Origin: a virus
Reading direction: 5' to 3' (one strand)
Virus record (IMG/VR): IMGVR_UViG_3300035670_000062
Location: 1-64,000 of that record
Length of the DNA stretch: 64,000 bases
Positions 16,832 through 48,566 of the stretch are shown one piece after another; the first letter of the stretch is position 1, and each line of letters begins with the position of its first letter. The notes below the pieces were generated by a model that was not told where the DNA came from, did not search any database, and saw only the letters and a list, made by a program, of their open reading frames with translations. The translations under genes were made by a program, and so were the position numbers.

Positions 16832-16864
16832 CTTGGCTACGTAGACGATGTTTCGTATCTTTAT
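16832..16864 (+). promoter_or_regulatory. Class I promoter, GATGTT subclass
   Basis: CTTGG at 16832, TATCTTTA at 16856. Its spacer GCTACGTAGACGATGTTTCG is identical to that of the promoter at 19278, which suggests shared control of the genes they drive. Confidence 0.78.
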
Positions 16865-16885
16865 GTATATAAAAAAATAAATAAA

Positions 16886-17737
16886 ATGAAAACATTAAAT
16901 TTAGTAAATATTGAACGAAGTGATATAAAATATCGTATTGATGAATTCCCTGATGGACAACAACAAGTTGTAATAGACACAGTAATTTACATTAGTAATG
17001 AACTTATTGTTGTAAAGTCTCGTTTAAATAACTTTCAAGATCTTGAACTTATTATTTGTGCTACTAAATCGTTACGTAATCTTGGAGTTAAAGAAATTCA
17101 TCTTTATACTCCATATTTTTTAGGTAGCCGAAGCGACAGACAGTTTGAAGAAGGAAGTAATAATTATCTTCGTGATGTAATTTGTCCTATTATCAACAGT
17201 CTTAACTTTGAATCTATAACTGTATTAGATCCTCATAGTGATGTATTAGAAGCTTGTTTAAATAATTTCAGAAAAAAACCAAACTCAGCATTAGTTAAAT
17301 TTGCTTTATATGATTTATATGAAGACATACCTTCTAAACAAAATTTCATTTTAATATCACCAGACGCAGGCGCAAGTAAAAAAATCTACAAGTTAGCCGA
17401 GCAAATTGATTACAAAGGAGACGTGATTACTTGCAGTAAAGATAGAGACGAAAAAGGTAAGTTAACTAAATGTGTTGTACCCTCTATACCATCAGGTAAA
17501 GACATAATCATTGTAGACGATATTTGTGATGGAGGGGCTACTTTTATCAACATTGCCAAAGAAATTAGAAATACTGAAGGATTTAATAATAAAATATGTC
17601 TCATTGTAACTCATGGTATATTTTCTAAAGGATTTAATGAGTTGTCTGAGTATTTTGATAATATATATTGTACAAATAGTTATTCAAATGTAAATGTAGG
17701 TCCTGGTTTTGTTAAACAGTTAGAAACATTTATGTAG
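16886..17737 (+). CDS. PRPP-synthetase-like kinase (Prs or Adps)
   Basis: 283 residues, start taken at ATG 16886 because an upstream in-frame start would lie inside the promoter. It has the Prs fold: YTPYFLGSRSDRQFEEG (like the flexible-loop region), VLDPHSDVLE (ATP/metal His), ISPDAGASKKI and the ribose-phosphate loop IIIVDDICDGGATF. It is shorter than typical Prs (about 315). Next to a NAMPT-like gene, such short Prs-like phage proteins include Adps, which makes ADP-ribose pyrophosphate in the NARP1 NAD+ rebuilding pathway. PRPP synthesis is the alternative. Confidence 0.82.
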   Translation: MKTLNLVNIERSDIKYRIDEFPDGQQQVVIDTVIYISNELIVVKSRLNNFQDLELIICATKSLRNLGVKEIHLYTPYFLGSRSDRQFEEGSNNYLRDVICPIINSLNFESITVLDPHSDVLEACLNNFRKKPNSALVKFALYDLYEDIPSKQNFILISPDAGASKKIYKLAEQIDYKGDVITCSKDRDEKGKLTKCVVPSIPSGKDIIIVDDICDGGATFINIAKEIRNTEGFNNKICLIVTHGIFSKGFNELSEYFDNIYCTNSYSNVNVGPGFVKQLETFM

Positions 17738-17742
17738 GGATG

Positions 17743-17775
17743 TTTGGTTACCTGAGTGATGTTTCGTATCTTTAT
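17743..17775 (+). promoter_or_regulatory. Class I promoter, GATGTT subclass
   Basis: TTTGG at 17743, TATCTTTA at 17767; spacer TTACCTGAGTGATGTTTCG. Drives the NAMPT-like gene separately from the gene upstream. Confidence 0.75.
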
Positions 17776-17794
17776 ATTAACAAATAAATAAAAA

Positions 17795-26376: not shown

Positions 26377-27717
26377 ATGAAATTAGAAATTTTAGAAAAC
26401 AGTAAAAATTATACATGCTCAGTTGTAGAAATACGAGATGTATTTGACATTGAAGGAGCAGATAACATTAAGAGAACTATTGTAAATGGTAATACAGTAG
26501 TCATACCTAAATCAGTTAATATAGGCGATAAAATGCTATATTTTGTGTCGGGTACTAAATTATCACATGATTATTGTCATAAAAATAATTTATACGATAA
26601 GAGTGAGGAAAACTATGATAATACTAAAAAAGGTTTTATCTCATTTAAAAATAAAAGAGTAAAAGCAATTAAACTCAGAGGTATTATCTCAGATGGTATG
26701 TTAATGAGTTTAGATTCATTATTACCATTTATTGAAAAAGGAAACATTTTTTCATTAAAAGTAGGAGATGAATTTAATACTATTAATGGTAATATATTAT
26801 GTGAAAAATATATTGTTGTTGAAAAAAATTCAGGGTTAAGTAATAAGTCTCAAAAAACAAAAACTCCTAAAATATCTAGATTAGTTGACAATCAATTTCA
26901 TTTTCATAATGACACTTCTAATCTTAGAAAAAATATACATAAGATAGATCCTAATGACACTATTAGTATTCATTATAAAAAACATGGTACTAGTTTTGTT
27001 GCAGGAAATATTTTAGTAAAAAAGAATTTAAAATGGTATGAAAAGTTCCTACAAAAACTAGGAGTAAATATTGTAGATACTGAATATGATGTTGTTTATT
27101 CTTCAAGGAAAGTAGTTAAAAATCAACATTTAAATTCTAATACTGAGCATTTCTATCAAGATGATATTTGGGGGTTGGTTACGAAGGATATTAAACATTT
27201 AATACCTAAGAATTGGACATTATATGGTGAGATAGTAGGATACACTCCATGGGGTTCACCCATACAAGGTAAATATGATTATGGTTGCAAACCAGGAGAA
27301 TATAAAACTTACATATATAAAATATCTATTGTTAATCCTGATGGTAAAGTTATTTATCTAACTGATAAACAAATTCAGGAATGGTGTGATAAAGTAGGAT
27401 TATTATATTCAGATACCTTTATTTATTATGGTACTATAGATAGTTTATTTGAAAGTATGGAATTTAATGATTGGGATGCTTTGCATAGGGAAGTAGAAAG
27501 AGATACTTGGCAGGAAACATTATTAGATTATTTAGAATATAAATACAATGAAAAAGACTGTTACATGTGTATAAATAAAGTTCCAGAAGAAGGTATTATT
27601 CTTAGAGTTGAAAAATTTGAGGAATATGAAGCATACAAACTTAAATCCAAAAGATTTACTCTGATGGAATCAGATGAACAAGAAAATGGAGTAAGTAATA
27701 TTGAGGATAATAACTAA
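26377..27717 (+). CDS. RNA ligase (DraRnl/Rnl5 family)
   Basis: 446 residues. The N-terminal 140 residues match the OB-like domain of Deinococcus DRB0094-type ligases (VEIRDVFDIEGADNI, IPKSVNIGDKMLYF). The nucleotidyltransferase core follows: motif I KKHG at 201-204 with Lys201 as the adenylate acceptor, then YGEIVGYTPWGSPIQ and EEGIILRVE with the metal Glu, and YKLKSKRF with motif V lysines. This family seals nicks with a 3'-OH RNA end. In a genome with so many tRNA genes, repair of cleaved tRNA is a likely use. Confidence 0.82.
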   Translation: MKLEILENSKNYTCSVVEIRDVFDIEGADNIKRTIVNGNTVVIPKSVNIGDKMLYFVSGTKLSHDYCHKNNLYDKSEENYDNTKKGFISFKNKRVKAIKLRGIISDGMLMSLDSLLPFIEKGNIFSLKVGDEFNTINGNILCEKYIVVEKNSGLSNKSQKTKTPKISRLVDNQFHFHNDTSNLRKNIHKIDPNDTISIHYKKHGTSFVAGNILVKKNLKWYEKFLQKLGVNIVDTEYDVVYSSRKVVKNQHLNSNTEHFYQDDIWGLVTKDIKHLIPKNWTLYGEIVGYTPWGSPIQGKYDYGCKPGEYKTYIYKISIVNPDGKVIYLTDKQIQEWCDKVGLLYSDTFIYYGTIDSLFESMEFNDWDALHREVERDTWQETLLDYLEYKYNEKDCYMCINKVPEEGIILRVEKFEEYEAYKLKSKRFTLMESDEQENGVSNIEDNN

Positions 27718-29463: not shown

Positions 29464-29559
29464 ATGTTACCTTTTCAAATTATACTTATATTCCTTGTAA
29501 CTTATGTAGTTGGGATTATAATATTAGAGAAAGAAAAAAAGGATGAAAATAAGCATTAA
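29464..29559 (+). CDS. Tiny membrane peptide
   Basis: 31 residues: one transmembrane helix (PFQIILIFLVTYVVGIIIL) and a charged tail. Starts five bases after the preceding stop. Could be non-coding by chance, but length and layout resemble other tiny membrane genes here. Confidence 0.35.
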   Translation: MLPFQIILIFLVTYVVGIIILEKEKKDENKH

Positions 29560-29563
29560 AATG

Positions 29564-29596
29564 TTTGGTTATTTAGAAAAATATTCGTATCTTTAT
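29564..29596 (+). promoter_or_regulatory. Class I promoter
   Basis: TTTGG at 29564, TATCTTTA at 29588, 24 nt apart. Reads into 29636 and possibly on into the tRNA cluster. Confidence 0.7.
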
Positions 29597-29635
29597 ATCA
29601 CACGATTAAATAATAAATAAAAAAAAATAAAAGTT

Positions 29636-29821
29636 ATGAAAAAACAAGAAAAACAAAATTTGTTAGTTACATTAAATGGTTTAGAAAGAAAAAATAAATT
29701 TAACTCAACTTGGGATAATAGAGTAAAAATGTGTTTCGATAAATCAGGTTCATATAGTTTTGAAGAATTAATATCAAAAGATTTCAATTCAGCAAAACAA
29801 TTAGTATTAATGTTTAAATAA
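29636..29821 (+). CDS. Hypothetical small basic protein
   Basis: 61 residues, basic, AAAAGTT leader. Unknown. Confidence 0.45.
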   Translation: MKKQEKQNLLVTLNGLERKNKFNSTWDNRVKMCFDKSGSYSFEELISKDFNSAKQLVLMFK

Positions 29822-29829
29822 TAAATTAT

Positions 29830-30045
29830 ATGAGTGATTTTTATAAAAATATTCTTGAATTTCAAGATAAAAGAGTTTCAAAACTTTGTGTAACTTTTGG
29901 TATAACTAAAGGTTATTTAGATATGTTGATGAGTCAAGATAAAATCTCTAAAAAAGATGTTGAAGTTCTAATTAACAGAATGGAAAAACTTTGGGGACAA
30001 ATTCAAGATTCAAAACTTGATAAGATACAAATGGAATTACTGTAA
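29830..30045 (+). CDS. Hypothetical small protein with HTH-like segment
   Basis: 71 residues. VSKLCVTFGITKGYLDMLMSQDKISKKDVEVL could be a helix-turn-helix; weak evidence. It ends eight bases before the first tRNA gene and may be on the same transcript. Confidence 0.45.
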   Translation: MSDFYKNILEFQDKRVSKLCVTFGITKGYLDMLMSQDKISKKDVEVLINRMEKLWGQIQDSKLDKIQMELL

Positions 30046-30052
30046 ATTCCTT

Positions 30053-30126
30053 GGACTCGTAGCTCAGGTGGTTAGAGCAAGAAACTCATAATTTCGAGGT
30101 CGGGAGTTCGAATCTCTCCGGGTCCA
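30053..30126 (+). tRNA. tRNA with anticodon CAT (elongator Met or Ile2)
   Basis: GGACTCG/CGGGTCC acceptor, canonical D arm, anticodon loop CTCATAA and T arm. The CAT anticodon could read AUG, or AUA if modified to lysidine; the body resembles both tRNA types. No encoded CCA. Confidence 0.85.
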
Positions 30127-30131
30127 CTACA

Positions 30132-30140
30132 TATTTATAA
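30132..30140 (+). promoter_or_regulatory. TATTTATAA box within tRNA cluster
   Basis: TATTTATAA between the first and second tRNA genes, eight bases before the initiator-like tRNA. Confidence 0.3.
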
Positions 30141-30147
30141 GATATAT

Positions 30148-30218
30148 CGCGGTTTGGTGTAATTGGTAGCATTCAGGGCTCATAACCCAGAGGCCAGGTT
30201 CGAGTCCTGAATCCGCAA
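30148..30218 (+). tRNA. Initiator tRNA-fMet(CAT)
   Basis: The anticodon loop CTCATAA is flanked by GGG and CCC, the three G-C pairs that mark initiators. If the molecule starts at C30148, its first pair is C1-A72, the mismatch that lets formylation and IF2 recognition occur. Both traits together point to a true initiator. There is one acceptor mismatch (T-T). About 71 nt, no CCA. Confidence 0.7.
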
Positions 30219-30228
30219 CTAAAAATAA

Positions 30229-30314
30229 GCATCTATGGCGGAATTGGTAGACGCGCGGGACTTAAAATCCCGTCCTCAGAAATGGGGGTGTAGGTTCGAT
30301 TCCTACTTGATGCA
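30229..30314 (+). tRNA. tRNA-Leu(TAA)
   Basis: 86 nt with the long variable arm of class II tRNAs; anticodon loop CTTAAAA. GCATC/GATGC acceptor base. No encoded CCA. Confidence 0.9.
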
Positions 30315-30323
30315 CTTAAATAA

Positions 30324-30394
30324 TGCCGAATCGTCTAATGGCAGGACATTAGGTTTTGGTCCTAAGTGTGGAGGTTCGAATCCTTCTTCGGCAA
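30324..30394 (+). tRNA. tRNA-Gln(TTG)
   Basis: TGCCGAA/TTCGGCA acceptor; anticodon loop TTTTGGT within a TTAGG/CCTAA stem. 71 nt. Confidence 0.9.
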
Positions 30395-30402
30395 CATAAA
30401 AT

Positions 30403-30474
30403 GCTCCGTTCGACAAGTGGTTAAGTCATTGCCCTTTCACGGCAAAGTCACGGGTTCGAATCCCGTACGGAGTA
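30403..30474 (+). tRNA. tRNA-Glu(TTC)
   Basis: GCTCCGT/ACGGAGT acceptor (one G-U), anticodon stem TTGCC/GGCAA with loop CTTTCAC, canonical T arm. 72 nt. Confidence 0.9.
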
Positions 30475-30506
30475 CTAAATATTAAATTAAAATAAATAAA
30501 TCGGTT

Positions 30507-31433
30507 ATGAAAAACAAATCATTGGCTACAAAAGGGTTATCAATTTCTCAAGCACAATCAATTTCTAATCTTTGTTTTCAAAGAGCAAGAGAAATAGCTG
30601 CGGAATTATCTAAAGTAAATAATAGTTCTAAAACTATTTTTATTGATGGTTTAGAATTTACTAAACAACAACCTAATCCAATACCTGAAAATGTAATTAG
30701 TTTGCTTGAATTAAAAGCTAAATTACATGCAACTCAAGCATTTCTAATGGAAAATATTAAAGCTAAGGATCAATTAATTAAATCTATTAAATTTGAAGAG
30801 CTAGATTTATCTGAATTTTCATCATTGAATCCTAGACCCGTTATGGAAACATATTCAGAAAAATTACCTGAATTAGTAGATGAAATTTTGGGATGGGGTC
30901 AGTTATCTGAAACAGAGTATAATGAATATTTAGAGGCTGAGGCTTATGCTTCTCATATAGGTCAATTTATCCATAAAGATGGTAAATTAGATATTTTAAG
31001 AAATGAACTTTCTAGCATGGATTCATTAGAATTTATGGAGATAGAAACAGGCAAAAAGACTCCAGTTAGAGTAAGTTCACATCATACTCCTGAGCAGCTT
31101 TATAATATCCATGAACAATTGGCTACGTTGCATAGAAAATATGAGCAAAAAGTTAATTATTTTAAGGCTAAAGTTAAGAACCTAGTCACAATGGAAAATG
31201 CTAGGATTTCTAAAGAAAAACAAATTATATCTTCTAGGATTGAGTCTAAAAATAAAGAATTAAAAGAAAAATATGAATCAGAAATGAATGAGTATTCTAA
31301 TAAAATTAGCAATGAAATATTTAAATTTGAAGAAGCTAAATATGATAGAATCAAAGAAGCATCAGAACTTAAAATTAATGTTGATAGTAGGTTTCAAGAT
31401 GTTGTAGATATGTTTTTAAATAAAATTGAATAA
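30507..31433 (+). CDS. Coiled-coil hypothetical protein
   Basis: 308 residues, almost entirely helical. Residues about 200-295 are Lys/Glu rich with coiled-coil periodicity (KQIISSRIESKNKELKEKYESEM). No enzymatic motif. Preceded by CGGTT ATG and followed by a strong terminator, so it closes the transcription unit that begins upstream of the first tRNA cluster. Structural or scaffolding role possible; unknown. Confidence 0.6.
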   Translation: MKNKSLATKGLSISQAQSISNLCFQRAREIAAELSKVNNSSKTIFIDGLEFTKQQPNPIPENVISLLELKAKLHATQAFLMENIKAKDQLIKSIKFEELDLSEFSSLNPRPVMETYSEKLPELVDEILGWGQLSETEYNEYLEAEAYASHIGQFIHKDGKLDILRNELSSMDSLEFMEIETGKKTPVRVSSHHTPEQLYNIHEQLATLHRKYEQKVNYFKAKVKNLVTMENARISKEKQIISSRIESKNKELKEKYESEMNEYSNKISNEIFKFEEAKYDRIKEASELKINVDSRFQDVVDMFLNKIE

Positions 31434-31445
31434 TATTGTGGTGGT

Positions 31446-31486
31446 AATTTAGGGAGTAGACATAAGTTGATCTCCCTAAATTTTTA
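31446..31486 (+). terminator. Strong intrinsic terminator
   Basis: Perfect 11-bp stem AATTTAGGGAG/CTCCCTAAATT with a 15-nt loop, followed by a T tract (TTTTTATA). Confidence 0.8.
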
Positions 31487-31524
31487 TATAAAGGAATAAA
31501 GATACATGTAAATTAATATTGACT

Positions 31525-31545
31525 TATGCATTAAGATGCATATAC
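31525..31545 (+). repeat. ATGCAT hairpin
   Basis: ATGCAT-TAAG-ATGCAT inverted repeat in the gap between the terminator and the structured RNA candidate. Confidence 0.4.
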
Positions 31546-31585
31546 ATATAATTATTTGTAAAATAATTAAAACAAAATTATATCG

Positions 31586-31736
31586 CTCCTTTTACAATAA
31601 AAATAATCTGAGATAGAACTCATCCAATATTCAGGTTACTGAAATTCATAGAGAAAGTATAAAAACTTTACCACTAGACAGATAATTGAATATTAAAAGA
31701 GACTTAGCATTTGACATTGCCTTTATGTAAAAGGAG
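31586..31736 (+). ncRNA. Candidate structured RNA, 151 nt
   Basis: The ends CTCCTTTTACA (31586-31596) and TGTAAAAGGAG (31726-31736) are perfectly complementary over 11 bp. Inside, AATATTCA (31626-31633) pairs with TGAATATT (31687-31694), and AAAGT/ACTTT makes a small hairpin within that. The element lies between a terminator and a promoter with no gene of its own, so it looks like an independent RNA or processed leader. No known class recognised. Confidence 0.5.
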
Positions 31737-31810
31737 GTCTTTGAATTTGTTGTTGAATTTGATTTAGTCTATTTTCTTTATTTCTTTATAACACCATTTA
31801 TTGTATTTTG

Positions 31811-31843
31811 TTTGGCTCCCCAGGGAGCCATTCGTATCTTTAG
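31811..31843 (+). promoter_or_regulatory. Class I promoter with spacer dyad
   Basis: TTTGG at 31811, TATCTTTA at 31835; GGCTCC-CC-AGGGAGCC dyad in the spacer. Gene start taken at 31873, after the promoter. Confidence 0.8.
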
Positions 31844-31872
31844 TATATAAGAAACAAATAAAAATAAAAGTT

Positions 31873-32778
31873 ATGACAACACAAACAAAAATGAAAATTG
31901 GTTACGATTCAATTACTAAATTGTATACATTCTTAAATGGGGATTTTTTATATAATGGTAAATCAACAAAAGATCCATTAAGAGCTAATACTTACAATAC
32001 CTTAATTACAACCTCAGAAAAACCAATTACAATTGAAAAATCAACTTCTATAAAGAAATTAATTGGATATCAAAATGAAAAAGATAATACTATTATATCT
32101 CAAGATGAATATGATAATTTATTAGAAGGGATTAATAAAGAGTGGAATGATGATGAAAATGAATGGGAATTTGGAAATATAGAAGACGAGATAAAATATA
32201 ATATTATATGTAAATCTTATACTCCCAAATATGAATATGAAACTCAATTAACTCAAATCGAATTTGAAATAATTGAATATCCAGCAAGTCAATATGATGA
32301 AATTATTCCATTATATTCATTAGATGCTAAAAATATTTTTGAAACTAAATGTACTTTTACTCCAAATCTATTTAAAACTTTTAGAGAAATATGTGAAAGG
32401 GAATATGGAATAGAAGCCAAAAATATAGAAAATGCAACTCATTCAGGAATTAGATATATAAAAATTAATAATGAATATATTCAAGGAATGGATGATTTTA
32501 ATATGAGATATAATAAATCTATTATAGATTCATATGATGGATGTATTGAAAGAATGGATACTCTTAAAAAAGATTTAAATAATATATTATCATTTCATTT
32601 TGCTAAAAAATCTCAAAAAATTCTAGATACTACTACATTAGGAGGATTTTTAACCGAATTAGATTCTATTAGAAATACCATTTATAAGTTAGAAATCAAA
32701 ACTAAAAGTTATGGAGATTACCAAAATGCATGTGGAAAAATCAATAAATTAATTAATCTAATCATTGAAAAAAATTAA
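31873..32778 (+). CDS. Hypothetical protein
   Basis: 301 residues, start at ATG 31873 after the AAAAGTT leader; an upstream TTG would run through the promoter. Mixed alpha/beta first half, helical second half (RMDTLKKDLNNILSFHFAKKSQKILDTT). No family recognised. Confidence 0.6.
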   Translation: MTTQTKMKIGYDSITKLYTFLNGDFLYNGKSTKDPLRANTYNTLITTSEKPITIEKSTSIKKLIGYQNEKDNTIISQDEYDNLLEGINKEWNDDENEWEFGNIEDEIKYNIICKSYTPKYEYETQLTQIEFEIIEYPASQYDEIIPLYSLDAKNIFETKCTFTPNLFKTFREICEREYGIEAKNIENATHSGIRYIKINNEYIQGMDDFNMRYNKSIIDSYDGCIERMDTLKKDLNNILSFHFAKKSQKILDTTTLGGFLTELDSIRNTIYKLEIKTKSYGDYQNACGKINKLINLIIEKN

Positions 32779-32779
32779 A

Positions 32780-32959
32780 ATGAATAATAAATTTTATAAA
32801 TCTAAAATAATAGGCAAATCATACTCCGCAAATGAATATATTAACCATGGTTATGGTGGTATAATGTATGGTAAAAAAGATTTACCACATAATGAATATC
32901 CTTATGAAATAATTTATGAAACACAGAAAAAATATATTAGGAGGCAGTACCTCAAATAA
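32780..32959 (+). CDS. Hypothetical small protein
   Basis: 59 residues, Tyr/Gly/Lys rich (YINHGYGGIMYGKKD). ATG two bases after the previous stop. A TTG start at 32765 is possible but would overlap. Unknown. Confidence 0.45.
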   Translation: MNNKFYKSKIIGKSYSANEYINHGYGGIMYGKKDLPHNEYPYEIIYETQKKYIRRQYLK

Positions 32960-33206
32960 ACCTACATCAACCATAGAATTAGTTAAAGTTCCTGATGAAG
33001 TTATTGTTGAAATACAAAGAGAAGAAATAGAGACCCTTAAAAAAGAAATAGATAAGTTAAAATATAAATCCGAAAATAAGATAATAACAGAACTTAAAGA
33101 TAAAAATAGAAGATTAAAATCTGAAAATAAGAAGTTAAAACTTCAATTAGATGTTTTAAATAATAAAATTAGGAAGTTTAATTCAAAAACCTTACCAAGA
33201 GGATAA
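32916..33206 (+). CDS. Coiled-coil protein
   Basis: 96 residues. From about residue 30 it is a continuous charged heptad coil (EEIETLKKEIDKLKYKSENK). Overlaps the previous gene by 44 bp in another frame. No enzymatic motif. Confidence 0.5.
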   Translation: MKHRKNILGGSTSNKPTSTIELVKVPDEVIVEIQREEIETLKKEIDKLKYKSENKIITELKDKNRRLKSENKKLKLQLDVLNNKIRKFNSKTLPRG

Positions 33207-33225
33207 TAATTTCTATTTGATTTTG

Positions 33226-33258
33226 TTTGGCTCCCCAGGGAGCCATTCGTATCTTTAG
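33226..33258 (+). promoter_or_regulatory. Class I promoter with spacer dyad
   Basis: TTTGG at 33226, TATCTTTA at 33250; the whole element repeats that at 31811 base for base through the dyad. Confidence 0.8.
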
Positions 33259-33281
33259 CGTATAAGAAACAAATAAAAGTT

Positions 33282-33686
33282 ATGTTATACGAATTGATTG
33301 TAAAAAGTAAAATTAATACTTATAGAAGTAGAATTACTTCTTCTAATACTATTAATATTTCTAATGGAATTTATAGAGAATTTAAATATCAATATTCTCA
33401 CCCCATTATACCACCTAGTTTAGTAAGTTTAAATGATAAAAAATTTATAGTACCTGAGTGGATAGAGGTTCATCCTAATACTGAATTAACAGATATTGAG
33501 TGGATAAAACCTATAAAAGAATATGTAAAACCTAATATTGAAATAATTGAATTTAAATCATCATCTAGTTCAGAAATTCATAGAGTTACTATTAAAGATG
33601 GGAAGATGAAATGTTCATGTATGGGATTCTTTAGGGGGAGAGGAAAGTGTAAACATACAAAAGAAGTTGAAGAAAGTAGAAAGTAA
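33282..33686 (+). CDS. SWIM zinc finger protein
   Basis: 134 residues. The C-terminus carries CSC, an eight-residue gap and CKH, the CxC...CxH form of a SWIM zinc finger, a DNA- or protein-binding element. The N-terminal part is beta-rich and not recognised. Own promoter; the DNA ligase gene follows behind another. Confidence 0.68.
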   Translation: MLYELIVKSKINTYRSRITSSNTINISNGIYREFKYQYSHPIIPPSLVSLNDKKFIVPEWIEVHPNTELTDIEWIKPIKEYVKPNIEIIEFKSSSSSEIHRVTIKDGKMKCSCMGFFRGRGKCKHTKEVEESRK

Positions 33687-33697
33687 GTAATGATTTG

Positions 33698-33730
33698 TTT
33701 GGCTCCACAAGGAGCCATTTGTATCTTTAG
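33698..33730 (+). promoter_or_regulatory. Class I promoter with spacer dyad
   Basis: TTTGG at 33698, TATCTTTA at 33722; GGCTCC-ACAA-GGAGCC dyad in the spacer. Drives the DNA ligase gene. Confidence 0.78.
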
Positions 33731-33773
33731 CGTATAAGAAATTAAAAATAATTGTAGAAGAAATAGAAAAAAT

Positions 33774-34847
33774 ATGAAAAAATTACCAACATTATATAAG
33801 TATAATACTAAAAATAAAGCTCAACAATGGGAAATTATTGTTGAGGGAAATTCATTTTACACCATAGAGGGATTGGTAGATGGTAAATTAACTATTTCTT
33901 CTTCTACATTATGTGAATCTAAAAATGTAGGTAAATCAAATGAAACTACTCCTCAAGAACAAGCTTTTTTTGAAGCTAAAGCTAAATGGCAAAAGAAACT
34001 AGATGAAGGTTATAATGAAGTTTTAACTACTCAAGTTAAATTTATTAAACCTATGTTAGCTCAAAAATATGAAGATTATAAGAAATTAATGTTTAAAAAT
34101 AGAACATTTATTCAACCTAAATTAGATGGTTTAAGATGTGTAAATGGGAGTAATAAACAAATGAGTAGAACAGGTAAAGAATATTTGTCTACTCCTCATT
34201 TAAATCAATCAACTACATTATTAGATGGTGAGTTATATTCCCATGAGTATAAACATGATTTTAATACTATAGTAAGTTTATGTCGTAAGACTAAACCTAC
34301 AAAAGAAGACATTGAGTTGAGTTCTAAAATAATTGAATATTGGATATATGATTTACCTAATGATGGTAGAGTATTTTCTAAAAGATTTGAAGATGTTTTA
34401 AAATTAGTTGAATTAAATCCCATGTTTAAAGTAGTACCTACGTATGAGGTTTTTAATGAAGAAGATATCGAAAAATATCACTTACAGTTTATCGAAGAAG
34501 GATATGAGGGAAGTATTATTAGAATGGATATGGGAGGTTACGAAAATAAAAGAAGTAAACAATTATTGAAAAAGAAAGATTGGATGGATGAAGAGTTTAC
34601 AATATTAGATATAGAATCAGGTAAGGGACAGTTGAGTGAAATTGCTGCTAGACTTATACTTCAACTACCTAATGGTGAAACTTTTAATAGTGCATTAAAT
34701 TGTAATCATGAAGAAATGAGTAGAATTTTTGTTAATAAAGAAAGTATAATAGGTAGACAAGCTACTGTTAAGTTTTTTGATTACACTCCAGATGGAAAAC
34801 CTAGATTTCCAAAAGTTGTAGTTATTGATAGATGGAGTTTTGAATAA
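33774..34847 (+). CDS. ATP-dependent DNA ligase
   Basis: 357 residues. An N-terminal WGR-like region (LYKYNTKNKAQQWEI...KNVGKSNETTPQEQA) is typical of phage ligases of this type. Motif I is FIQPKLDGLRCV with the adenylated Lys116; LDGELYSH (motif III), EGYEGSIIRM (motif IV) and LLKKKDW (motif V) follow, with a C-terminal OB fold. It seals nicks in duplex DNA at Okazaki junctions and repairs. Confidence 0.92.
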   Translation: MKKLPTLYKYNTKNKAQQWEIIVEGNSFYTIEGLVDGKLTISSSTLCESKNVGKSNETTPQEQAFFEAKAKWQKKLDEGYNEVLTTQVKFIKPMLAQKYEDYKKLMFKNRTFIQPKLDGLRCVNGSNKQMSRTGKEYLSTPHLNQSTTLLDGELYSHEYKHDFNTIVSLCRKTKPTKEDIELSSKIIEYWIYDLPNDGRVFSKRFEDVLKLVELNPMFKVVPTYEVFNEEDIEKYHLQFIEEGYEGSIIRMDMGGYENKRSKQLLKKKDWMDEEFTILDIESGKGQLSEIAARLILQLPNGETFNSALNCNHEEMSRIFVNKESIIGRQATVKFFDYTPDGKPRFPKVVVIDRWSFE

Positions 34848-34944
34848 TATTAAACAAGCAAAAAACTAATCAAATACCAAGTTTCATTACCCTTAATAGG
34901 ATGTGTTTTAAAGGTATTTTATAAATTAATTATATTATTATATT

Positions 34945-35268
34945 ATGAAAAAAGTTATTATAATGTGTTTATTTCCTATAACTATGTGGAGTCAACAATC
35001 TACATTGAACTATAAAACACCCATTAAATTCAACCTAAATACAAACAATGTAACTTATTCAAGTTATTCTTATTCACCTATAGGTCCTGGTTTGATGTTA
35101 GGTGGTGCTATTTTTACTACAGCAGCATTATTAACTGTACCTAATTATAATGTAAGGGGAGTTCAACAATATTCTCCTTATGTAAAAACAACACCTAGAT
35201 TTACAGCTATGATGTTGGGAATTGGTTGTTTCAGTATTGGGACTGTTTTAACAATTGGGGGAAGATGA
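34945..35268 (+). CDS. Hypothetical secreted or membrane protein
   Basis: 107 residues. A short signal-like N-terminus (MKKVIIMCLFPITMWSQQ) and two later hydrophobic stretches (GLMLGGAIFTTAALL, MMLGIGCFSIGTVL). Resembles small envelope proteins of Bacteroidota; no family recognised. Confidence 0.5.
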   Translation: MKKVIIMCLFPITMWSQQSTLNYKTPIKFNLNTNNVTYSSYSYSPIGPGLMLGGAIFTTAALLTVPNYNVRGVQQYSPYVKTTPRFTAMMLGIGCFSIGTVLTIGGR

Positions 35269-35582
35269 AACTTATTTATAAAATAATATCAGATCACCCT
35301 GAGGTGAAAGATCATCCAGATGTTGTAAAATTAATAGATTATATTGATAATCTTGAGGAGAGTAAAATTAAGAAGGAACAAGATTTAAAATTTAATAAGG
35401 AATTATTATATCTTGAATTACTCAGAGAAATTTATAAAGATATATTATTTCAAATCGAACAAGATGAATTATCAATAAGATTTAAAGAAACAAATAGAGT
35501 TGATTTTAAAGAATGTTTAATTTATTTAAAGAAATATTTAGATAAATTTCAAGAGGAAAATAAAGTAAATTTAAATAGATAA
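35265..35582 (+). CDS. Hypothetical helical protein
   Basis: 105 residues, charged and helical. Start at ATG 35265, which overlaps the previous stop (ATGA). Unknown role. Confidence 0.5.
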   Translation: MKLIYKIISDHPEVKDHPDVVKLIDYIDNLEESKIKKEQDLKFNKELLYLELLREIYKDILFQIEQDELSIRFKETNRVDFKECLIYLKKYLDKFQEENKVNLNR

Positions 35583-35601
35583 AAAAACTCCCACGAAATC
35601 A

Positions 35602-35634
35602 TTTGGTTACCTGAAAAATGGTTCGTATATTTAC
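35602..35634 (+). promoter_or_regulatory. Class I promoter before tRNA array
   Basis: TTTGG at 35602, TATATTTA at 35626, 24 nt apart. Candidate promoter for the small frame at 35689; a terminator at 35835 separates it from the tRNA array. Confidence 0.65.
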
Positions 35635-35688
35635 AGTATAAGAAAGAAAAGATCGACTTAAAAAAGAAAACACATATTTATAATAAAA

Positions 35689-35808
35689 ATGAAAAATTGT
35701 AGCCTAAATATTAACCTTACGAATACATGGAGTCGCCCGACTAATCATGATGGGGTCTATTCATTTAGAGCGAAATCATCAGACAAAATAAAACCACCCG
35801 GTTTATAA
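35689..35808 (+). CDS. Possible 39-residue protein
   Basis: ATG to TAA reading MKNCSLNINLTNTWSRPTN and ending PPGL, between a promoter and a terminator. GC-richer than neighbours. It may be a real leader peptide or chance. Confidence 0.35.
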   Translation: MKNCSLNINLTNTWSRPTNHDGVYSFRAKSSDKIKPPGL

Positions 35809-35834
35809 ATAGAATTATATATAATAATTATATC

Positions 35835-35869
35835 AACCCGGGTTTACAAAGTTAAGCTCGGGTTTTTTT
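35835..35869 (+). terminator. Intrinsic terminator
   Basis: AACCCG/CGGGTT stem with a 18-nt loop, then seven T residues, ending seven bases before the first gene of the large tRNA array. Confidence 0.6.
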
Positions 35870-35875
35870 GTTTTA

Positions 35876-35949
35876 AGGCTTTTTAGTTTAATTGGTAAAA
35901 TACGATACTTGTAATATTGAGAAAATGGTTCGAATCCATTAATGGCCTC
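35876..35949 (+). tRNA. tRNA-Thr(TGT)
   Basis: Anticodon arm CGATA-CTTGTAA-TATTG; TTCGAAT T loop; acceptor AGGCTTT/ATGGCCT has one mismatch and one G-U. Confidence 0.75.
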
Positions 35950-35986
35950 TTAAAATTGTTCTTTGACATATTGGAAATTAAAAAAT

Positions 35987-36069
35987 GGAAGTGATCCGGC
36001 TGGATGAGGAGCTGTTCTTGAAAAGCAGTAATGCTTATGGTATTGTGAGTTCGAGTCTCACCGCTTCCG
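35987..36069 (+). tRNA. tRNA-Ser(TGA)
   Basis: GGAAGTG/CGCTTCC acceptor, anticodon loop CTTGAAA, long variable arm, G at the discriminator position. 83 nt. Confidence 0.88.
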
Positions 36070-36075
36070 CAATAA

Positions 36076-36151
36076 CGAGTAGTAGAGGAGTCAGGTTTAT
36101 CTCGCTTGGTTTGGGACCAAGAGCACGCAGGTTCGGATCCTGCCTACTCGA
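36076..36151 (+). tRNA. tRNA-Pro(TGG)
   Basis: CGAGTAG/CTACTCG acceptor; anticodon arm CTTGG-TTTGGGA-CCAAG; T loop TTCGGAT. Confidence 0.9.
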
Positions 36152-36193
36152 CTAAAAATAAAATCATATAATTATGAAAAGTGACAAACAAAC

Positions 36194-36267
36194 GCTCTCG
36201 TAACTCAGTTGGATAGAGTACTAAGCTTTTAACTTAGGAGTCAATGGTTCAAATCCATTCGGGAGCA
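36194..36267 (+). tRNA. tRNA-Lys(TTT)
   Basis: GCTCTCG/CGGGAGC acceptor; anticodon arm CTAAG-CTTTTAA-CTTAG. 74 nt. Confidence 0.92.
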
Positions 36268-36274
36268 CAAAAAT

Positions 36275-36349
36275 GGTCTATTGGTGAAGTGGCTATCATC
36301 TCTGCCTGTCACGCAGAAGTAGACGGATCGTAACCGTCATGGACCGCCA
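36275..36349 (+). tRNA. tRNA-Asp(GTC)
   Basis: GGTCTAT/ATGGACC acceptor, anticodon arm TCTGC-CTGTCAC-GCAGA, encoded GCCA end. The T loop is ATCGTAA, lacking the usual T54. Confidence 0.88.
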
Positions 36350-36353
36350 AAAT

Positions 36354-36429
36354 ATATCCTTAGCTCAGTTGGAAGAGTAACATGTTTACATCATGAAGGT
36401 CCTAGGTTCAAGTCCTAGAGGATATACCA
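36354..36429 (+). tRNA. tRNA-Val(TAC)
   Basis: ATATCCT/AGGATAT acceptor, anticodon loop TTTACAT, TTCAAGT T loop and encoded ACCA end. Confidence 0.88.
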
Positions 36430-36439
36430 TCACAAGTAG

Positions 36440-36485
36440 AGGACATTGGCCGTGTAAAGGTGCCACTACCAAGAAAGATGTCCAA
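36440..36485 (+). other. Hairpin between tRNA genes
   Basis: GGACAT...ATGTCC with TTGG/CCAA inside encloses about 43 nt. It is too short for a tRNA and lacks a recognisable anticodon or T arm; possibly a tRNA remnant or processing element. Confidence 0.35.
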
Positions 36486-36489
36486 ATTT

Positions 36490-36570
36490 GGGAGATTATA
36501 CCGTAGAGGTAGCGGGGCAGCCTGTAAAGTTGTTACGAAAGTTCGGGTGGTTCGACTCCATCATCTCCCA
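36490..36570 (+). tRNA. tRNA-Tyr(GTA)
   Basis: GGGAGAT/ATCTCCC acceptor; anticodon loop CTGTAAA in a wobble-rich stem; long variable region as expected for bacterial Tyr. 81 nt. Confidence 0.88.
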
Positions 36571-36577
36571 CTTCTAA

Positions 36578-36691
36578 GGGTAAAACGCTTCCTGAACCGA
36601 TGTTGGGAGGTTATTGAAGAGTGGTTAAAGGCCATAATATATCTTTGTCGGGGATATATAGTTTTGTAAAAGCTTCAATTTAGTTTTACCC
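36578..36691 (+). ncRNA. Candidate structured RNA in tRNA array, 114 nt
   Basis: GGGTAAAAC (36578-36586) and GTTTTACCC (36683-36691) are perfectly complementary over 9 bp. Inside are TTGAAG/CTTCAA and ATATATC/GGATATAT arms, so it folds as a multi-arm RNA of tRNA-like size. I find no T loop or acceptor-anticodon layout, so it is not an ordinary tRNA. T4 has stable RNAs C and D in its tRNA cluster; this may be a counterpart. Confidence 0.45.
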
Positions 36692-36701
36692 CCGGTACTT
36701 T

Positions 36702-36773
36702 GGCTCTATGGTGAAATGGTTATCACTGCGGACTGTTAATCCGTCATTCCAAGTTCGAGTCTTGGTGGAGCCG
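36702..36773 (+). tRNA. tRNA-Asn(GTT)
   Basis: GGCTCTA/TGGAGCC acceptor; anticodon arm GCGGA-CTGTTAA-TCCGT; G discriminator. 72 nt. Confidence 0.92.
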
Positions 36774-36782
36774 CAATAAAAC

Positions 36783-36859
36783 AGACACATATACCCTCCG
36801 CCTGATACGCGGTAGAAAGGTTAATTGGTTGCATGTAGGTTCAAGTCCTACTGTGTCTA
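36783..36859 (+). tRNA. tRNA-Ile(GAT)-like, atypical, D arm missing or displaced
   Basis: Acceptor AGACACA/TGTGTCT (7 bp) and T arm GTAGG-TTCAAGT-CCTAC are perfect. The anticodon arm CCGC-CTGATAC-GCGG has a canonical loop (T33, GAT, A37), but only eight bases separate it from the acceptor, leaving no room for a D arm. A 20-nt stretch with D-arm-like AATTGGTTGC follows instead of a short variable loop. It may be non-functional or an unusual shape. Confidence 0.5.
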
Positions 36860-36864
36860 CATTT

Positions 36865-36947
36865 GGAAAATAAAATAGAGAGGATCTATAACCGCCTGCT
36901 AAGCGAGTTGTACCATCAGGTATGTGTTTCGAGTACACTGTTTTCCG
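36865..36947 (+). tRNA. tRNA-Ser(GCT)
   Basis: GGAAAAT/GTTTTCC acceptor, D stem TAGA/TCTA, anticodon loop CTGCTAA, variable arm TACC-ATCA-GGTA, G discriminator. 83 nt. Confidence 0.82.
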
Positions 36948-36949
36948 CT

Positions 36950-37024
36950 GTGTTCATAGTGTTAAGGGTTAGCACGTTTGGTTGTGGTTCAAAAAGTATG
37001 GGTTCAAATCCCATTGAACACCCC
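36950..37024 (+). tRNA. tRNA-His(GTG)
   Basis: G at the -1 position opposite C73, the His identity pair; anticodon loop TTGTGGT; encoded CCA end. Confidence 0.88.
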
Positions 37025-37028
37025 AATT

Positions 37029-37100
37029 GCGGATTAGGTTATGGTAACCAAGAGGCCTCCAAAACCTCAGGACAAGGTTCGATTCCTTGAGTCTGCGCCA
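37029..37100 (+). tRNA. tRNA-Trp(CCA)
   Basis: GCGGATT/AGTCTGC acceptor with two G-U pairs, short D loop (GGTT-ATGGT-AACC), anticodon loop CTCCAAA, G discriminator and encoded CCA. Confidence 0.85.
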
Positions 37101-37105
37101 TGTAA

Positions 37106-37178
37106 GGGAGTATAGCAAAGATGGTTTATGCGCTGGACTGAAAATCCAGAGATACAGGATCGTTACCTGTTGCTCCCA
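37106..37178 (+). tRNA. tRNA-Phe(GAA)
   Basis: GGGAGTA/TGCTCCC acceptor; anticodon arm CTGGA-CTGAAAA-TCCAG; T loop ATCGTTA lacks T54, as in the Asp gene. Confidence 0.88.
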
Positions 37179-37190
37179 CAAAAATAAAAT

Positions 37191-37263
37191 GGGTCTGTGT
37201 CCGAGTGGTTACAGGTGACTTCCTGCAAAGTTGTTTACATAGGTTCGAATCCTATAAGACCCT
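37191..37263 (+). tRNA. tRNA-Cys(GCA)
   Basis: GGGTCT/AGACCC acceptor, anticodon loop CTGCAAA, T73 discriminator as expected for Cys. The anticodon stem is weak, with two T-T oppositions. Confidence 0.78.
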
Positions 37264-37270
37264 CTAAAAT

Positions 37271-37344
37271 GCCTATATGGCGGAATTGGTAGACGCGCTT
37301 GATTTAGGATCAAGATTTTACAGGTTCGAGTCCTGTTATGGGTA
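37271..37344 (+). tRNA. tRNA-Leu(TAG) with short variable loop
   Basis: Anticodon arm CTTGA-TTTAGGA-TCAAG. The D arm resembles that of the Leu(TAA) gene (GGCGGAATTGGTAGACGCGC), but the variable region is only about five bases, where bacterial Leu tRNAs have a long arm. Acceptor pairs with two wobbles. Confidence 0.82.
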
Positions 37345-37349
37345 CAAAA

Positions 37350-37422
37350 GTATTCTTAGTTCAATTGGATAGAACCTCTAACTACGGATTAGAGAATGTA
37401 TGTTCGAGTCATACAGAATACT
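37350..37422 (+). tRNA. tRNA-Arg(ACG)
   Basis: GTATTCT/AGAATAC acceptor; anticodon arm TCTAA-CTACGGA-TTAGA. Needs A34-to-inosine editing by host TadA. Confidence 0.9.
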
Positions 37423-37427
37423 CAAAT

Positions 37428-37499
37428 GTCTCTATAGTTCAATGGATAGAATTTTTCTCTTCTAAAGAAAAGATGCTGGTTCGAATCCAGCTAGGGATA
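37428..37499 (+). tRNA. tRNA-Arg(TCT)
   Basis: GTCTCTA/TAGGGAT acceptor with wobbles; anticodon arm TTTCT-CTTCTAA-AGAAA. Reads AGA, a codon very common in this phage. Confidence 0.88.
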
Positions 37500-37505
37500 C
37501 TAAAA

Positions 37506-37578
37506 GCGGGTATCGTATAATGGTTAATTACACTAGCCTTCCAAGCCTGTGATGTTGGTTCGATTCCAACTACCCGCT
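37506..37578 (+). tRNA. tRNA-Gly(TCC)
   Basis: Perfect GCGGGTA/TACCCGC acceptor; anticodon loop CTTCCAA; T discriminator. Anticodon stem has two mismatches. Confidence 0.85.
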
Positions 37579-37596
37579 CATATATTTATTTTAAAT

Positions 37597-37670
37597 GGGG
37601 ACGCATGTACCAAGACTGGCGAAGGATACTTGCAATATCCTTGTGGTGGATTTGATTTCCACCGTCTCCA
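37597..37670 (+). tRNA. tRNA-Ala(TGC)
   Basis: GGGGACG/CGTCTCC acceptor; anticodon arm GGATA-CTTGCAA-TATCC; T loop TTTGATT is atypical. Confidence 0.82.
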
Positions 37671-37680
37671 CTTTATTTTA

Positions 37681-37850
37681 CTGGATTGGGCCAGTTAAAA
37701 TAGTTGCTTAAGCCCAAAGCGTTATATTACATAATATAGATGCAATGCATGTAGTTTAGCAGCTTAGACACCATTCGAGTGAAAGCTGTAGGGATAGATA
37801 CCTAGTATTTTAAGAGAAGAATAGTAACTTAATCTCAAACCATCTATGCG
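37681..37850 (+). ncRNA. Candidate structured RNA after tRNA array
   Basis: No gene here. TTGGGC/GCCCAA (37686/37712) makes one hairpin. ATAGATG (37736-37742) and CATCTAT (37841-37847) enclose a domain with CAGCTT/AAGCTG (37760/37783) capped by CAC/GTG around a CATTCGA loop, and TAGG/CCTA. The layout suggests a stable non-coding RNA read with the tRNAs. Confidence 0.42.
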
Positions 37851-37856
37851 AATTTG

Positions 37857-37889
37857 TTTGGCTCCTCAGGGAGCCATTCGTATCTTTAT
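37857..37889 (+). promoter_or_regulatory. Class I promoter with spacer dyad
   Basis: TTTGG at 37857, TATCTTTA at 37881; GGCTCC-TC-AGGGAGCC dyad. Reads into 37919. Confidence 0.8.
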
Positions 37890-37918
37890 GGTATAAGAAA
37901 CAAATAAAAATAAAAGTT

Positions 37919-38464
37919 ATGAAAACATTAGTTAAGCATCTTAAAAATGAGAGAATTGGAGAGATAATCAAAGAAAATCCCAAAACATTTTTAGTTAAAA
38001 CTCTAAAAGTAGGATATGAAACTATATATGAAAAGGTTTTATGGAAAAAGGAAGATGTATCATCTTATACAGAACCAGTTAAAGAAAAATCATTTTATGA
38101 TAAAATGAGAGAACGAAATATGGAAGACGCAAAAAACCTACCTACAACTCCTAAAGAAGCATCTCAAACAATTTTGTTGTTAAAAATGGCTATTATAGAT
38201 AGAGTAGAAAAAATTGAAAAAAGAGATCATAAAGAAGATAACATATTTACTTTTAGAGAAAAATCTACAGACAGATTTGGCTTTACAGAAAATTATGTTA
38301 ATATATTAATGCAAATGGCTTATGATGAGGGTCATAAAAATGCAACCGAAACTTTAACTAAAAGATATAATTCTTCTACTCAATTAATGAAAGATGCTTT
38401 AGATAAAATAAAGGATGCTTTAGATGATGCTAATTGGATTGAAGAATGTAATTGTAATTATTAA
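37919..38464 (+). CDS. Hypothetical protein
   Basis: 181 residues. A small N-terminal beta domain (LKNERIGEIIKENPKTFLVKTL) then charged helices; the C-terminus ends EECNCNY. First of three closely spaced unknown genes. Confidence 0.55.
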   Translation: MKTLVKHLKNERIGEIIKENPKTFLVKTLKVGYETIYEKVLWKKEDVSSYTEPVKEKSFYDKMRERNMEDAKNLPTTPKEASQTILLLKMAIIDRVEKIEKRDHKEDNIFTFREKSTDRFGFTENYVNILMQMAYDEGHKNATETLTKRYNSSTQLMKDALDKIKDALDDANWIEECNCNY

Positions 38465-47759: not shown

Positions 47760-48566
47760 ATGAACTTAACACCAGAACAACTTAAACAAAATTGGGATAC
47801 ATTAATCAATTATATTGAAACATATATCTCCAACCCTAGAAAAAAACATCTATTAAATTTCTATAATAAATTTCAGGATAGGTTAATGTTTATCCCAGCA
47901 TCAGGAAAAAAAGAATATCACAATGCATTCCCAGGTGGATACATAGATCATATTAATAGAGTAGTTGAATGTGCTTTAAAATTACATGGTGTTTGGACTG
48001 AAATGGGTTCAAATTCAAATACATATTCAATTGAAGAACTTGTATTTGCTGCTATAAATCATGATTTAGGTAAATTAGGAGATGAATATGAAGATGCATA
48101 TATTCCTCAAACAGATCAATGGAGACGAGAAAAATTAGGAGAGGATTATATGAATAACAATAAAATAGCATATGCATCAATTCCTGATAGAGGATTATAT
48201 TTACTTCAATTACATGATATTAAATATACATTCAATGAAATGGTAGCTATTCAGACTCATGATGGTTTATATGATGAGGGTAATAAAAAATATTTAATGG
48301 GATATCATGCAGACACTAAACCTAGAACTAACTTAATTTATATATTACATCAAGCAGATATGATGGCTTCAAGAATTGAATTTGAAAAAGAATATAAGTT
48401 CCCTTCAATCAAATCCCCTTCAGAAAAACTATCATCTAAAAAGTCAGATGATAATTTTAGTTTAGTTAATTCAATGCAACCTAAAACCTCAACTTCAAAA
48501 TCAAAAGAAAAAGCATTATCAACAATTAAAAGTGATAATTTGTTGGATATGTTAAATAAAATGTAA
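47760..48566 (+). CDS. HD-domain phosphohydrolase
   Basis: 268 residues. Metal-site residues of the HD fold: His64 in GGYIDHINRV, His101-Asp102 in INHDLGKLGDEYE, a His in IQTHDGLYD and an Asp in LHQADMMASRIEFE. The C-terminal 60 residues are low-complexity Ser/Lys. Substrates in this superfamily range from nucleotides to cyclic dinucleotides and 3' RNA ends, so activity cannot be named. AACAGTT leader. Confidence 0.8.
   Translation: MNLTPEQLKQNWDTLINYIETYISNPRKKHLLNFYNKFQDRLMFIPASGKKEYHNAFPGGYIDHINRVVECALKLHGVWTEMGSNSNTYSIEELVFAAINHDLGKLGDEYEDAYIPQTDQWRREKLGEDYMNNNKIAYASIPDRGLYLLQLHDIKYTFNEMVAIQTHDGLYDEGNKKYLMGYHADTKPRTNLIYILHQADMMASRIEFEKEYKFPSIKSPSEKLSSKKSDDNFSLVNSMQPKTSTSKSKEKALSTIKSDNLLDMLNKM

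Follow-up and report, generated by a model that had tools for sequence, protein, structure and literature searches.

We analysed a 64,000-nucleotide stretch of DNA, referred to below as the window, which comprises bases 1–64000 of the 113,098-base IMG/VR virus record IMGVR_UViG_3300035670_000062 and carries 24 tRNA genes between positions 30053 and 37670. One of these, the tRNA-Ile(GAT) gene at 36783–36859, has the segments of its core in an exchanged order, such that the D-loop follows the anticodon arm instead of preceding it. We consider it likely, and hold this with good confidence, that the array is real and complete and that its Ile gene belongs to a family of phage tRNAs for Ile and Arg, termed here swapped-core tRNAs, which have an altered, undescribed topology and are working tRNAs.

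Segment order of the tRNA-Ile(GAT) gene

Canonical tRNAs are built in the order acceptor stem, D stem, D-loop, D stem, anticodon arm, variable loop, T arm and acceptor stem. The gene at 36783–36859 has an acceptor arm, a T arm and a GAT anticodon loop, with a 7-bp acceptor stem, a 5-bp T stem carrying a loop of the TTCRANY type (TTCAAGT), and an anticodon loop of 7 nt that includes U33 and sits on a paired stem of 4 bp, where five is usual. The D-arm that a canonical class I tRNA has between the acceptor and anticodon arms is absent, as the gap between the two stems is only 8 nt and leaves no room for it, and a D-loop-like TAATTGG is positioned 3' of the anticodon arm. The order is acceptor, D 5' strand, anticodon arm, D 3' strand, D-loop, T arm and acceptor, with the following elements:

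36783–36789, plus strand: acceptor stem 5' strand, pairing with 36852–36858; 7 of 7 pairs covary
36793–36795, plus strand: D-stem-equivalent 5' strand ACC, pairing with GGT at 36819–36821; outer pair AU, CG, UA or GC in the family
36802–36808, plus strand: anticodon loop CTGATAC, anticodon GAT; the flanking 4-bp stem covaries
36822–36830, plus strand: transposed D-loop TAATTGGTT with a G18G19-like GG and a U20-like T, assigned by family comparison

The initial annotation had named rejection of several genes by a covariance model, in particular Ile(GAT), Cys or Thr, as the outcome that would undo a complete set. The score in the canonical Rfam tRNA model is indeed low, but at 32.0 bits it still lies above the gathering score, and we attribute the low value to the non-canonical topology rather than to a dead gene.

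A phage family of Ile and Arg tRNAs

The 462-kb phage LR756500 shares this arrangement but has another acceptor stem and a swapped pair in the anticodon stem. The family was defined by a D-strand pair formed across the anticodon arm, followed by TAANNGG and then by T (Ile) or A (Arg). The window copy conforms to this definition with ACC/GGT, TAATTGGT and anticodon GAT, and scores 92.4 bits in the R1 covariance model, whose training set included it. A first search pattern returned 15 viral stretches. A looser pattern, which placed no constraint on anticodon, acceptor, outer D pair or the base following GG and fixed the 8-nt spacer, the CT before and A after the anticodon and two D-strand pairs, returned at least 120 viral stretches versus 6 stretches in 84,980 prokaryote genomes; all six came from metagenome-assembled genome (MAG) records, and canonical tRNAs share the stretch in four of them. 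The abundance in viruses is a lower bound, and family counts rest on the matches listed. Among these, 109 distinct 80-nt sequences were extracted, two copies at contig ends being dropped, and only Ile (82) and Arg (27) anticodons occur (TAT 54, GAT 28, ACG 19, TCT 4, TCG 2, CCT 2). Because the pattern demands CT before and A after the anticodon, tRNAs that have different loops and serve other amino acids may have escaped it.

The R1 model, applied to 157 sources, recovered diverged copies beyond the reach of the pattern, with further matches in sequenced phage isolates and jumbo phages. It added one copy with a CAT anticodon (L259), and other amino acids were not found above 35 bits among the parsed matches in these sources. 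All 21 diverged copies that could be parsed have 7–9 nt between the acceptor and anticodon stems; in the 109 sequences the pattern fixes this gap at 8 nt. When the model was run on 395 genomes of one phylum, only the centre genome matched (0 of 394 others), and among 392 genomes of another phylum the centre was accompanied by one weak match of 35.6 bits (1 of 391 others). Taken together, the pattern and model searches of genomes indicate that the family belongs to phages, with rare copies in MAG contigs; it is apparently widespread and phage-restricted.

The swapped copy has no label in the records of Streptomyces phage Targaryen, Braelyn, Microbacterium phage A3Wally and Kehishuvirus tikkala, and is labelled tRNA-Leu in that of EGole. 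We rejected the Leu(UUA) reading behind the latter label, since that triplet lacks a flanking stem and the covarying stem surrounds GAT. ARAGORN overlaps 3 of 138 swapped copies. Judged from titles and the openings of abstracts, the open-access papers found on odd, permuted or missed phage tRNAs do not report such an arrangement, which subscription papers and other preprints could contain, and a review of non-canonical tRNAs (PMC7609411) gave no match to permutation or viruses.

Covariation supports the exchanged fold

The secondary structure is shown by covariation. From 100 sequences, 4 without the usual linker were dropped and 31 of the remaining 96 were removed by a diversity filter, giving an alignment of 65 sequences that lie at least 9 bases apart pairwise. 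All four helices were supported, with 98.5% of 1235 cells paired overall, 98.5% in the acceptor stem and 97.2% in the T stem. Changes on both sides of a pair occurred in 452 cells, compared with 138 expected from shuffles, and 16 of the 19 pairs show such changes. The covariation value was 0.910, versus 0.212 for shuffled alignments and at most 0.158 in slid controls, and RNAalifold, given no structure as input, returned the same 19 pairs. The diagnostic helix is the D-stem equivalent across the anticodon arm. Its outer pair, left free by the pattern, is Watson–Crick in 100 of 100 distinct copies (CG 49, AU 42, UA 5, GC 4), and the D strands of the diverged copies vary widely (CTC/GAG, CGT/ACG, CGG/CCG, CGA/TCG, CCG/CGG).

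These data bear on two alternatives. A degenerate tRNA pseudogene or an assembly artefact, as might be suspected from the 32-bit score and the lack of an ARAGORN call for Ile(GAT), is already refuted by covariation among 65 diverse sequences from independent assemblies, and copies are also present in sequenced phage isolates; we assign this explanation practically no weight. Alternatively, the gene could be permuted, its transcript being cut and religated into a canonical tRNA, perhaps by the phage RNA ligase. This is very improbable: acceptor and T arms already adjoin each other at either end, leaving just an internal swap of tRNA segments to be made, for which we know of no mechanism, and the covariation of the D strands across the anticodon arm follows gene order. 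What speaks for permutation is that circularly permuted tRNA genes are reported to exist in nature (PMC3978253) and that an RNA ligase gene is located at 26377–27717 of the window.

The base at position 20 tracks the amino acid

In canonical tRNAs, the base after the D-loop GG is position 20. In the swapped-core family, the base after the transposed GG, which the pattern leaves free, is linked to the amino acid: U stands there in all 73 Ile copies and A in all 27 Arg copies, and the expected base is present in 21 of 22 diverged copies outside the 65-sequence alignment, the remaining copy being unparsed. Canonical tRNAs at the same loci have A after GG in 74 of 76 cases for Arg and T in 17 of 25 for Ile. 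Of the 73 Ile copies, 68 have A at N73. In bacteria, a D-loop determinant at position 20 has been reported for both Ile and Arg, A20 being an arginine determinant in Escherichia coli and Thermus thermophilus and G16, D20 and D21 mattering for isoleucylation and editing in E. coli (PMC9976931). The correspondence between this base and the amino acid is the strongest sign that the moved loop would still act as a D-loop and that the RNA would be charged.

Swapped genes replace canonical genes in tRNA arrays

Swapped genes sit in tRNA arrays. Of 138 copies at 134 loci, 134 share their strand with the closest canonical tRNA, none has that tRNA on the opposite strand, and 4 have no canonical tRNA at the locus; the median distance is 83.5 nt. 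Using one locus per distinct copy and at least five canonical tRNAs per locus, we found canonical Ile(gat) at 2 of 21 loci with a swapped GAT copy versus 11 of 20 loci with a swapped Arg copy (Fisher p 0.0025), and canonical Arg(acg) at none of 20 Arg-copy loci versus 12 of 21 GAT-copy loci (Fisher p 5e-5). The swapped gene replaces the canonical gene with the same anticodon.

This behaviour argues against a tRNA-like decoy, which would retain identity elements, take no part in decoding and titrate isoleucyl- or arginyl-tRNA synthetase (IleRS, ArgRS), an anticodon nuclease or a further tRNA-binding factor of the host. Despite the unusual topology, the anticodon, position 20 and N73 are kept, which is all that a synthetase decoy needs. 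We nevertheless regard a decoy as improbable: apart from the replacement of canonical genes, the family uses six anticodons, which span the codon boxes of Ile and Arg, 23 of 27 Arg copies encode CCA, and GAT and TAT copies occur together in some arrays, as decoding would need.

The tRNA set of the window

The array is a real, nearly minimal complete set of 24 genes for 20 amino acids, all of which the initial annotation had read from the sequence and which the following calls bear out. The genes form two clusters, with 5 genes at 30053–30475 and 19 at 35877–37670. ARAGORN called 20 tRNA genes in the array and none in 200 dinucleotide shuffles of 29500–38000. The Rfam tRNA model (RF00005) gave 22 matches across the whole record, 21 of them above the gathering score, and added two genes to the ARAGORN set, Ile(GAT) and Ser(TGA), the latter at 28.6 bits, just under the gathering score of 29. 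Ser(GCT) and Ala(TGC) were called neither by ARAGORN nor by RF00005. Ser(TGA) has 89.8% identity with a gene of a relative (L116) that ARAGORN calls Ser(tga), and Ser(GCT) matches an ARAGORN-called Ser(gct) of another relative (L114) with 81% identity over 59 nt. On the combined basis of ARAGORN, Rfam and homology for Ser(TGA), Ser(GCT) and Ala(TGC), the 24 genes and 20 amino acids stand. CCA is encoded by 4 of the 24 genes (Asp, Val, His and Trp). The genes, all on the plus strand, are as follows:

30053–30127 (+): tRNA-Met/Ile2 (CAT), elongator type; ARAGORN, Rfam 62.6 bits
30148–30219 (+): tRNA-fMet (CAT), initiator-like; ARAGORN, Rfam 39.3 bits; C1xA72 and GGG/CCC by eye
30229–30315 (+): tRNA-Leu(TAA); ARAGORN, Rfam
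30324–30395 (+): tRNA-Gln(TTG); ARAGORN, Rfam
30403–30475 (+): tRNA-Glu(TTC); ARAGORN, Rfam; 95.9% to the LR745206 copy
35877–35949 (+): tRNA-Thr(TGT); ARAGORN, Rfam
35987–36070 (+): tRNA-Ser(TGA); Rfam 28.6 bits (below 29), homology to L116
36076–36152 (+): tRNA-Pro(TGG); ARAGORN, Rfam
36194–36268 (+): tRNA-Lys(TTT); ARAGORN, Rfam
36275–36349 (+): tRNA-Asp(GTC); ARAGORN, Rfam
36354–36429 (+): tRNA-Val(TAC); ARAGORN, Rfam
36490–36571 (+): tRNA-Tyr(GTA); ARAGORN, Rfam 31.2 bits
36702–36774 (+): tRNA-Asn(GTT); ARAGORN, Rfam
36783–36859 (+): swapped-core tRNA-Ile(GAT); R1 model, Rfam 32.0 bits, covariation; no ARAGORN call
36863–36949 (+): tRNA-Ser(GCT); homology to L114 Ser(gct); no ARAGORN or Rfam call
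36950–37025 (+): tRNA-His(GTG); ARAGORN, Rfam
37029–37100 (+): tRNA-Trp(CCA); ARAGORN, Rfam
37106–37179 (+): tRNA-Phe(GAA); ARAGORN, Rfam
37191–37264 (+): tRNA-Cys(GCA); ARAGORN, Rfam
37271–37345 (+): tRNA-Leu(TAG); ARAGORN, Rfam
37350–37423 (+): tRNA-Arg(ACG), canonical; ARAGORN, Rfam
37428–37500 (+): tRNA-Arg(TCT); ARAGORN, Rfam
37506–37579 (+): tRNA-Gly(TCC); ARAGORN, Rfam
37597–37670 (+): non-standard tRNA-Ala(TGC) with short D-arm, 7-bp anticodon stem and G3:U70; homology

Completeness and dependence on the host

From the full set, the initial annotation had also suggested near independence from host tRNAs. The set is full, but near independence is not supported, as not all 61 sense codons are decodable without host tRNAs. 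The CAT gene at 30148 has C1xA72 and a GGG/CCC anticodon stem, which we take to be features of an initiator tRNA. The CAT gene at 30053 is an elongator Met tRNA or, if modified, Ile2; since it serves either AUG or AUA, the other of the two, elongator AUG or AUA, is left uncovered. AUA accounts for 524 of 1172 Ile codons in a total of 12,797 codons. CGG, which has no cognate anticodon in the set and under the wobble rules is not obviously readable by it, occurs in none of the 12,797. Neither a CCA-adding enzyme (PF01743) nor a TilS-type ATPase (PF01171) was found in the 113-kb record, which is possibly incomplete. Charging presumably needs host synthetases, no dedicated synthetase search having been made.

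A relative of the same baseplate lineage (G030/L114) carries 25 ARAGORN tRNAs for all 20 amino acids, including all anticodons of the window plus CCG in a different order, and also a swapped Ile(TAT). This second full set, independent and reordered, speaks for selection towards completeness. The array of G030 also contains a GOLLD RNA (277.9 bits, L114:9767–10183), located between L114's own tRNAs; compare the intergenic stretch 31434–31800 of the window, described below.

The count alone is not unusual, as a complete phage set is already known from Xanthomonas phage XacN1, reported to have tRNAs for all 20 amino acids (PMC5852040), and Shigella phage Sf14 is reported to have 26 tRNAs for 19 amino acids (PMC12482277). 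The full set might serve only codon compensation in a genome of 28% GC, with no role against loss of host tRNAs. This is a possibility that we do not favour: the codon use of the phage is strongly AT-biased, as it would require, but there is one tRNA for nearly every codon box, rarely used boxes included, and G030 retains the 24 anticodons in another order. Phage tRNAs are reported to help against tRNA-cleaving defences (PMC11555353, PMC10264068).

The phage and other elements around the array

The source is a myovirus-like phage, a distant relative of Flavobacterium phage immuto, with whose homologue the baseplate protein of the window shares 46% identity. The record encodes a DnaB helicase, a UvsX-like recombinase, GroEL, DNA and RNA ligases, nicotinamide phosphoribosyltransferase, thymidylate synthase, ribonucleotide reductase, UvdE and a baseplate wedge protein. 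Searches with single proteins gave no close relatives, whereas a profile of the baseplate protein succeeded, with relatives encoded by at least 598 viral stretches. A tRNA match was present in 12 of 36 related records, most of which are fragments. At 16823–19270, the nicotinamide phosphoribosyltransferase gene adjoins a gene with a phosphoribosyltransferase domain, as in pathways that rebuild NAD+, and the record starts with a tyrosine integrase gene (167–964), unexpected in a large myovirus-like phage.

A second type of non-standard phage tRNA is represented by Ala(TGC), which occurs in 64 viral stretches with 42 distinct sequences; ARAGORN calls overlap only 22 of the 64. It has a short D-arm, CCAAGGC(T)TGG, an anticodon stem of 6–7 bp and G3:U70 in the acceptor stem; N73 in the window is A at 37670. 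A relative in a Vibrio phage is annotated as tRNA-Ala. About 10 nt 3' of this tRNA, just past the array, begins a further RNA element:

37680–37745, plus strand: Pistol self-cleaving ribozyme; Rfam RF02679, 55.8 bits, gathering score 34.5

The ribozyme may separate the array from downstream RNA. Pistol core patterns gave no match in viral contigs, and no Pistol was found in 38 related records or in 3 further relatives; as control genomes gave no Pistol signal either, the absence from the 38 relatives is weakly supported. Among the open-access papers found on phage tRNAs and Pistol ribozymes, no title or opening of an abstract describes the two side by side. The situation resembles that of theta ribozymes, small ribozymes adjoining tRNA genes of Bacteroidota-type phages (PMC10879173), with the difference that here a Pistol ribozyme lies downstream of the last tRNA. 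Theta ribozymes have an HDV-like fold and cleave at the 3' end of the tRNA.

Several gaps may be structured. The 130-nt array gap at 36572–36701 has a 9-bp closing stem, GGGTAAAAC/GTTTTACCC (z -1.52), and the gaps 36430–36489 (stem GGACAT/ATGTCC) and 37746–37850 fold into stems. Between the clusters, the 367-nt intergenic stretch 31434–31800 has a long predicted stem and no Rfam match. None of these four regions has relatives among the loci compared. An intergenic hairpin, GGCTCC..GGAGCC, followed by an TATCTTTA-like motif, presumably a Bacteroidota promoter motif, is repeated at about 31810–31845, 33224–33260, 33697–33735 and 37855–37892.

Discussion

Some observations weigh against working tRNAs of a new topology. 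In the alignment, two of the three D-strand pairs are invariant, because the pattern fixes those bases, and strict Watson–Crick pairing of the D strands in the 22 diverged copies reaches at least three pairs in only 14, with two pairs in 7 and one copy unparsed. The anticodon stem is consistently only 4 bp across the family, the single-sequence free energy of Ile(GAT) is unremarkable (z -1.12), and two model matches (L210:5159 and L256:912) look decayed. The loci used in the replacement test are mostly partial contigs, a canonical Ile(gat) lies beside the swapped copy at one locus (L132), and Kehishuvirus tikkala also has an annotated tRNA-Ile. The family is not invisible to every tool, as the Rfam tRNA model passes 4 of 9 copies (8 loci) at 29–41 bits.

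Known tRNAs with unusual structures differ from the swapped-core family in the order or content of their parts. Permuted tRNA genes are circular permutations restored by processing. They too have gene segments in non-standard order (PMC3978253). Swapped-core genes, in contrast, have normal ends and an altered interior order. In tRNASec, tRNAPyl and allo-tRNA the arm order is canonical. Their likeness to the present family is that they are natural tRNAs with non-canonical arm sizes (PMC7609411). The D-arm-less mitochondrial tRNAs likewise have no canonical D-arm between the acceptor and anticodon arms, but a connector is reported to replace it there, whereas here the D-loop, the GG and position 20 are kept and moved 3' (PMC7609411). 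Phage XacN1, like the window, combines a full 20-amino-acid set with the family, in the form of a diverged swapped Arg(ACG) at 47790–47866, which its record does not annotate as a tRNA, and a further match at 366585–366661; it differs in having 26 canonical tRNAs per terminal repeat of a 385-kb genome (PMC5852040).

In the swapped-core tRNA, pairing of the two D strands across the anticodon arm lengthens this arm into a single continuous hairpin, and the GG-containing D-loop follows as a 3' linker. In the mechanism that we propose, the linker would fold back onto the T-loop like a normal D-loop, giving an L shape. The host IleRS and ArgRS, which are class I enzymes recognising D-loop position 20, would then charge the RNA, which could serve translation in infected cells at times when host tRNAs are scarce or attacked. 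The likeliest reason for the new fold, and the weakest step of the proposal, is that it would conceal the tRNA from nucleases or modifying enzymes of the host that recognise a canonical core; we consider this doubtful. As a whole, we lean towards a second natural tRNA topology, in which translation-active Ile and Arg tRNAs that keep the identity base, in many phages of Bacteroidota, Actinomycetota and other hosts, would evade host tRNA-targeting defences or core-modifying enzymes.

The order of tRNA arms is treated as universal, and a covarying family breaks this order while keeping the bases by which synthetases identify their tRNAs. If the reading is true, the family provides a natural experiment on the requirements for charging and use of a tRNA, and phage tRNA counts and claims of missing Ile or Arg tRNAs would be wrong for many genomes, because gene finders skip swapped genes. 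The swapped fold may also offer an orthogonal scaffold for tRNA engineering. Phage isolates on Streptomyces, Microbacterium and Bacteroides hosts make the swapped tRNA testable now, and if the fold protects from tRNA-cleaving immunity, it would represent a new escape route for phages beside changes in the anticodon loop.

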